The notes beneath the pieces were generated by a model. That model had not been told where the DNA came from and searched no databases. It saw only the letters and a list, made by a program, of their open reading frames with translations. Shown in pieces: positions 39,495-42,413 of a stretch of DNA of 64,000 bases. Source of the stretch: Deltaproteobacteria bacterium (GTDB taxonomy: Bacteria; Desulfobacterota; DSM-4660; Desulfatiglandales; HGW-15); assembly GCA_019310485.1 (NCBI GenBank), contig JAFDEF010000001.1, forward strand, positions 77,289 to 141,288, read 5' to 3'. The stretch's first letter is position 1. Each line of letters starts with the position of its first letter. The position numbers and the translations under genes were made by a program.

Positions 39495-39654
39495 AAGCAT
39501 AATAAATATCAGGATTTCGACAAAGAGTCAAAAAGATCAGAGTACAGTATTTCTTAAACTATCGTTGACGATACTGTGTTTATGCGCTAAAAGAAGTTTG
39601 CTCTACCATCGAAAACACCACGATCTAAACAAACCTTTTTTGGGGGCTCTGCAA

Positions 39655-40274
39655 ATGGAGGGATTGGCATTTTCTTTGGGAAAAGAAGAAGAGAAGGTTT
39701 CGCTGGAGGATTTCTATGACCTGGTCATATTCGGGGGGGACCTGCCGGCCTTACGGCTGCAATTTATGCGGCAAGGGCAAGAGTCAAAACGCTCGTTATT
39801 GAAAAGGAAGAAGTCGGAGGCAAGGCAGCTACAACCGATGTCATTGAAAACTACCCCGGCTTTCCGGAAGGAATCAATGGACATGCACTTGCCCAGCGAA
39901 TGGTGGAACAGGCGAAAAAGTTTGGGGCTATAGTTTACAGGGGCACCCCGACGGATGTGCAGCTCAAAAAGCCACCAAGAACTTTCACACTTGATGGAAA
40001 GACAGTCTCCTGCAACAGCATTATTATCGCAACAGGCACTTCCCCAAAAAAACTGAATGTTCCTGGAGAGGAAAAACTCAAAGGCCGTGGGGTGTCATAC
40101 TGTGCCACCTGTGATGGGCCAATCTATGCGAACGAAGATATTGCTGTAATTGGCTGCGGGAATTCAGGGCTCCAGGAGGGCCTTTTTATCCTGAAGTTTG
40201 TAAAATCAATCACTTTCGTTGAATTTCTACCCGAGATCCGGGCAGAAAAAATTTTGCTTTACGCAAAAATTTGA
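39655..40274 (+). pseudogene. Thioredoxin reductase-like fragment, frameshifted and truncated
   Basis: Residues before the shift read EDFYDLVIFGG. Restoring one G in the 7-G run at 39733-39739 gives GGGPAGLTAAIYAAR and a continuous flavoprotein: VIENYPGFPEGI, IIIATGTSPKKLNVPG, redox motif YCATCDGP and NADPH site VIGCGNSG. The frame then ends at 40274 after EIRAEKI, so roughly the last third of a normal reductase is missing. Joined directly to disulfide-oxidoreductase sequence in another frame. The single-G shift may be a sequencing error; the C-terminal loss cannot be. Confidence 0.85.
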
Positions 40275-40833
40275 GTGCCAGTACTGCGAATTAACCCATG
40301 AATTGTTAAACGAAATTGTTGATCTTTCAGACAAGCTAACGCTTCAAACTTATGAGTTTGTTAAGAACAAGGAAATAGCCGAAAAATACGGGGTGGATAA
40401 GATTCCCGCCATAGTCATCGAGGGGGGAAAAGACTACGGGATCCGTTTCTACGGAGTTCCGGCCGGATATGAGTTTACCACGCTGATCGAAGATATGATT
40501 GACGTATCGAGAGGCACAACAAACCTTTCGGCCGAGACAAAAGAACCCCTTAAGAACCTGGAAAAGAACATGCATATTCAGGTCTTCGTAACCCTCACCT
40601 GACCTTATTGCCCCCGTCCCGTGCGCACTGCCCATCAAATGGCGATAGAAAGCGAGCGTGTGAGAGGAGACATGATCGAATCAGCTGAATTCCCCCAGCT
40701 TGCCAACAAGTATTTTGTTACCGCTGTGCCTAAAGTGGTTATCAACGATGAAGTGGATTTCGAAGGCGCACTCCCAGAGAAAAGCTCCCTTGATAAAGTT
40801 CTCGAAGCTGAAGGAGTGGCAAAGAAAACCTGA
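40219..40833 (+). pseudogene. Glutaredoxin-like protein disulfide oxidoreductase (PDO) with in-frame TGA at active-site Cys
   Basis: Two thioredoxin folds. First fold begins mid-domain at KFCFTQKFECQYCELTHELL (active site CQYC) and continues KYGVDKIPAIVIEGG. Second: HIQVFVTLT, then TGA (40600-40602), then PYCPRPVRTAHQMAIES and AVPKVVINDEVDFEGALPE in the same frame to 40833. In PDO proteins the second active site is CPYC, so TGA takes the place of its first Cys. Either a nonsense mutation in a decaying gene or selenocysteine (U-P-Y-C). The N-terminal part of fold one is absent, which favours decay. No convincing SECIS hairpin is seen by eye. The TTG at 40219 is not a credible start. Confidence 0.75.
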
Positions 40834-42081: not shown

Positions 42082-42157
42082 TGGAGGCGGCAACCGGATT
42101 CGAACCGGTGAATAACGGTTTTGCAGACCGCTGCCTTAGCCACTTGGCTATGCCGCC
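42082..42157 (-). tRNA. tRNA-Cys (anticodon GCA)
   Basis: Minus strand: acceptor GGCGGCA pairs with TGCCGCC, followed by discriminator T and encoded CCA. Anticodon loop TCTGCAAAA gives GCA (Cys). TPsiC arm GGTTCGAATCC is intact. 76 nt. Confidence 0.95.
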
Positions 42158-42337: not shown

Positions 42338-42413
42338 TGGAGCGGGAAACGGGACTCGAACCCGCGACAACCACGTTGGCAACGTGGGGCTCTACCAACT
42401 GAGCTATTCCCGC
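42338..42413 (-). tRNA. tRNA-Gly (anticodon GCC)
   Basis: Minus strand: GCGGGAATAGCTCAGTTGGTAGAGC start, anticodon loop TTGCCAA gives GCC (Gly), GGTTCGAGTCC TPsiC arm, acceptor closed by TTCCCGC with discriminator T and encoded CCA. 76 nt. It lies 180 bases upstream of tRNA-Cys on the same strand and 43 bases after pgsA; probably one transcript. Confidence 0.95.

Follow-up and report, generated by a model that had tools for sequence, protein, structure and literature searches.

A probable former selenocysteine codon in a decaying thioredoxin reductase-protein disulfide oxidoreductase gene pair

In a 64,000-nucleotide stretch of a deltaproteobacterial genome (hereafter the window; assembly GCA_019310485.1, contig JAFDEF010000001.1, positions 77,289 to 141,288), a thioredoxin reductase gene and the protein disulfide oxidoreductase (PDO) gene behind it form a locus that is probably a recently dead selenoprotein gene, with a former selenocysteine (Sec) codon left in a decaying reductase-PDO pair. 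In disulfide exchange, PDO works together with thioredoxin reductase. An earlier note on this DNA had offered the choice 'selenoprotein or nonsense mutation', and the first option stood in the past tense only: the Sec machinery of the genome, the TGA of relatives and a constraint that is as strong behind the codon as in front of it speak for a former Sec, while the deleted start and N-terminus, the broken reductase and the failure to find a SECIS element speak against a live selenoprotein. The features of the locus are as follows.

39655-39740, forward strand: N-terminal piece (MEGLAF...YDLVIFGG) of the thioredoxin reductase, sharing its frame with the ORF at 39565-39933
39733-39739, forward strand: seven consecutive G, where the reductase changes frame (from the sequence, the change of homology frame and the list of homopolymers)
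39735-40256, forward strand: middle part of the thioredoxin reductase, including CATC (tblastn with the L069, L090 and L127 reductases)
40246-40258, forward strand: deletion junction; reductase homology stops at 40256 and the 'FTQ' of PDO starts at 40258
40249-40833, forward strand: PDO (TIGR02187 PDO_seleno_TRX) without the first ca. 21 model positions and without a start codon
40276-40287, forward strand: first active site, C-Q-Y-C, intact (translation, alignment)
40600-40602, forward strand: in-frame TGA in the nucleophile codon of the second active site, where relatives read UPYC (sequence, translation, codons of homologues)
40603-40662, forward strand: expected region of a bacterial SECIS, in which none was found (best permissive hairpin, -0.8 kcal/mol)

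The frame from 40204 to 40833 is open except for the TGA at 40600-40602, as seen from the sequence and its translation, and it closes with another TGA at 40831-40833. Homology to PDO begins at ca. 40249 ('KFCFTQKFECQYC'), and the preceding 40204-40248 is former reductase sequence in a different frame. The internal TGA takes the place of the leading Cys in the second CPYC site and is followed by P-Y-C. The earlier note had called this TGA the sole interruption and had placed it at the nucleophilic Cys of the site; both statements proved correct, the codon being Cys (TGT or TGC) in 54 and TGA in 13 of the 67 homologues tallied from a comparison set of 69 loci from named genomes.

The window PDO scored 262.6 bits against the NCBIfam model TIGR02187 'PDO_seleno_TRX' (curated cut-off, 185) and shows the CxxC of the first half and the [CU]PYC of the second half as CQYC and TGA-P-Y-C, respectively; it covers positions 22-209 of the 209 in the model, and is thus neither full-length nor provided with a start codon. 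Pfam thioredoxin domains match at the same places. The alignment with the Pyrococcus-type PDO (PDB 1A8L) starts at residue 25 of the latter, which likewise consists of two thioredoxin-fold halves with one CxxC site each but has Cys at both sites and possesses the N-terminal part missing from the window copy. TIGR02187, 'homolog of AhpF N-terminal domain', is a listed selenoprotein family with UxxC, of which ABB15282.1 is an example of a Sec-containing PDO (PMC13188914), and PDO of the TIGR02187 type also appears in PMC1794560. The window copy falls in the same family and has its TGA at the same UxxC position, but differs in lacking the N-terminus, the start and the SECIS and in belonging to a broken gene pair. 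The window copy is a damaged member of this known redox-protein family.

The damage extends over both genes. The first ca. 80 nt of the reductase are in one frame and the part from ca. 39735 to 40256 is in another, and tblastn with intact reductases matched this other frame only from 39729-39738 on. Homology ends after residue ca. 220 of ca. 344, and the reductase piece scored 114.7 bits against TIGR01292, the cut-off of which is 343. Since the points flanking the junction are 472 nt apart in L069, ca. 470 nt are missing from the window, a loss that covers the C-terminus of the reductase, the intergenic gap and the start of PDO. The sole possible start before the first CxxC is a TTG at 40219, which has no visible ribosome-binding site. 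These data uphold what had been said of the missing N-terminal part of PDO, in which the first ca. 21 model positions are absent, and of the adjacent reductase, which is frameshifted and truncated. With a frame change and a ca. 470-nt deletion, the assembly shows lesions that abolish the products, and we conclude from the sequence that the reductase-PDO locus is a recent pseudogene; in principle, the lesions could be assembly errors. Judged by ORF layout alone, the remaining genes of the window seem intact. No second PDO copy was found in the genome at E 0.001 or better, and two further relatives of the reductase are present elsewhere in it.

Sec decoding is expected to work in this organism, since tRNA-Sec, selB, selA and selD are all present. 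A search for these genes had been proposed as a check, and it recovered the complete set: a tRNA-Sec scoring 69 bits with the anticodon TCA, selA, selB and a selD (L129) which itself encodes a selenoprotein, with a TGA at 1531 within GSG-U-ASK and a SECIS of the canonical bacterial type (UCCAGG-GGA-CCUGGA, loop GGA at +21, -8.0 kcal/mol). Two features of bacterial selenoprotein genes are thus found here, namely selA/selB/selC/selD in the genome and an in-frame TGA aligned with the redox Cys or Sec of homologues.

A search of 61 genomes yielded eight PDO homologues, all from the same order as the window, 47-52% identical to the window copy and with an in-frame TGA; all eight have U-P-Y-C at the same codon, and a reductase gene lies close to PDO in each. 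No copy closer than these eight was found in 85 genomes of the class or in 395 genomes of the phylum. The phylum search also found PDO-reductase fusions, two of which (the AhpF-like L124 and L125) carry UPYC. The 13 TGA copies of the codon tally comprise nine in one deltaproteobacterial clade and four in Chloroflexota, and seven of the nine are apparently the copies already found in the order of the window, so that the two sets overlap. The fusions bring the other TGA copies to 15; the four from Chloroflexota and the two fusions make up six copies more distant than the eight of the same order. Because many copies have TGT or TGC and thirteen have TGA, the PDO family is, on its codons, a mixed Cys/Sec family.

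By sequence and in the tree, the closest homologues of the window PDO are the Cys-type PDO of L044 (labelled as a Thermoproteota MAG; 61-63% identity) and those of the WOR-3 MAGs L051, L054 and L057 (branch support 99/94), all of which have TGT where the window copy has TGA. The reductase-PDO pairs found within the order of the window (L087, L096, L097, L098 and others) share with the window the order of reductase then PDO and the TGA at the same codon, but they are intact, have a hairpin of the GUGCG-GUU-CGCAC type at +14 to +26 and stand in another branch of the family. The codon in close homologues, which had been suggested as a test, gave a divided answer, TGT in the nearest ones speaking against Sec and TGA in all eight of the same order speaking for it. 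Whether Sec had been inherited from the Sec clade within the order of the window was considered, and this grouping was rejected (p-AU 0.011; 0.079 under a simpler model). Since the nearest homologues have Cys and the grouping with the Sec clade was rejected, Sec in the window PDO would be an independent gain. Well-supported branches force at least three changes between Cys and Sec at this codon, and the window locus adds to the evidence of repeated exchange between the two at one PDO codon.

Conservation of at least 90% was seen in 44 PDO columns, and the window copy preserves every one of them, 26 before and 18 after the TGA. The divergence from L044 at codon positions 1, 2 and 3 was 0.30, 0.17 and 0.69 before the TGA and 0.33, 0.16 and 0.63 after it; codon-position divergence served in place of dN/dS because third positions differ by 63-69% from the nearest homologue. 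The similar divergence on both sides and the intact conserved columns indicate that the sequence beyond the TGA was still translated, and under selection, until a short time ago. Few neutral changes have accumulated since selection on PDO was lost; a rough estimate is that so clean a record would survive 0.05 changes per site in less than 1% of cases. The earlier note had named two outcomes that would tell against Sec, a genome without Sec machinery and close relatives with Cys combined with relaxed selection downstream of the TGA; the genome does have the machinery, and the downstream constraint is strong in spite of the TGT of the nearest relatives, so that neither applies in full.

These observations bear on the possibility that a Cys-type PDO which never used Sec was broken by the deletion and then acquired a nonsense mutation by chance at its second active-site Cys. 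This is unlikely, even though the codon is TGT in the nearest homologues, no SECIS follows the TGA and nonsense mutations would be free to arise in a gene that is dead anyway. Single-base changes can create a stop by 84 routes across the 194-codon PDO frame, and only one of the 84 falls at the TGA codon; together with the little time since selection ended, this makes a chance hit at exactly this codon improbable. The body of PDO, in which no other decay is seen, leaves little time for neutral hits. Moreover, Sec is decoded in this genome, and TGA recurs in the family at exactly the same codon. The improbability of a random nonsense mutation here, argued in the earlier note, is thus borne out, and the TGA is probably an old Sec codon and not a random mutation. 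As a matter of judgement and not of a computed posterior, a former Sec is considerably the better of these two explanations.

As had been reported, no clear SECIS follows the TGA: the published bSECIS model is matched by no hairpin, none combining four unbroken pairs with the required loop, and Rfam gave no credible match in this stretch. Each of the 15 other TGA copies had a permissive hairpin score of -5.6 kcal/mol or lower, as against the -0.8 kcal/mol of the window, but so did roughly every second Cys copy (Cys median, -5.9 kcal/mol). The missing SECIS weighs only moderately, because TGA and Cys copies overlap in this score and are weakly separated by it (p 0.003). The GUGCGCAC stretch was considered as a SECIS remnant and set aside: with the usual Ala of the family adjacent, the hairpin would reach only -3.1 to -4.7, and it is uninformative since 30% of random synonymous sequences score as well. 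In the fusions, one stem pair of the SECIS-like hairpin changes on both sides between L124 and L125 (CCGCAGC/GCUGCGG to CCACAGC/GCUGUGG), a compensatory change which supports that hairpin.

The lack of a bSECIS-like hairpin also counts against a PDO that is still alive, its lesions being assembly errors or its shortened form using an alternative start, with UGA read as Sec through a non-standard SECIS. Such a PDO would agree with the intact and strongly constrained body and with the Sec machinery, and one lesion does lie at a homopolymer, a common type of assembly error. Yet the loss of ca. 470 nt is no homopolymer error, the rest of the window is whole by ORF layout and the lone TTG lacks a visible ribosome-binding site, and we regard a live gene as quite improbable, more so than a chance nonsense mutation. 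An N-terminally trimmed PDO whose UGA is still Sec by means of a new SECIS class or another context signal is scarcely credible.

For the recently dead selenoprotein gene, both Sec insertion in this lineage and the reality of the lesions are what we infer, and its history was probably as described below. In the ancestral unit, an NADPH-dependent thioredoxin reductase would have preceded a PDO whose second site used Sec as its nucleophile. Electrons would have passed from the reductase to the CxxC sites of PDO, the Sec of U-P-Y-C attacking the disulfides of substrates, and a SECIS hairpin of the mRNA, together with SelB and tRNA-Sec, would have let UGA be decoded as Sec. Loss of ca. 470 nt would then have fused the middle of the reductase to PDO just upstream of the first CxxC, taking the C-terminus of the former and the start of the latter, and the reductase additionally would have changed frame at the G run. 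Today the TGA would terminate translation, provided that ribosomes get to it in the first place. The locus would thus show what is probably a selenoprotein gene shortly after it died, in a genome still making selenoproteins, its SECIS gone while the PDO protein sequence stays clean, and automated annotation would report unrelated ORF fragments in its place.

Some irregularities were seen among the PDO homologues and elsewhere in the window. L102, from a Chloroflexota MAG (Ardenticatenales), has U-A-Y-C instead of U-P-Y-C. The Sec-type PDO of L009 (G052) has an extra TAG at the Q of FTQ, with masked stretches nearby, and is perhaps a second broken copy. In L110, from a Thermoplasmata MAG, the second half of the PDO homologue is in a different frame, possibly by a frameshift or a sequencing error. 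On the minus strand of the window, a tRNA-Cys(GCA) and a tRNA-Gly(GCC) lie side by side at 42082-42157 and 42338-42413.
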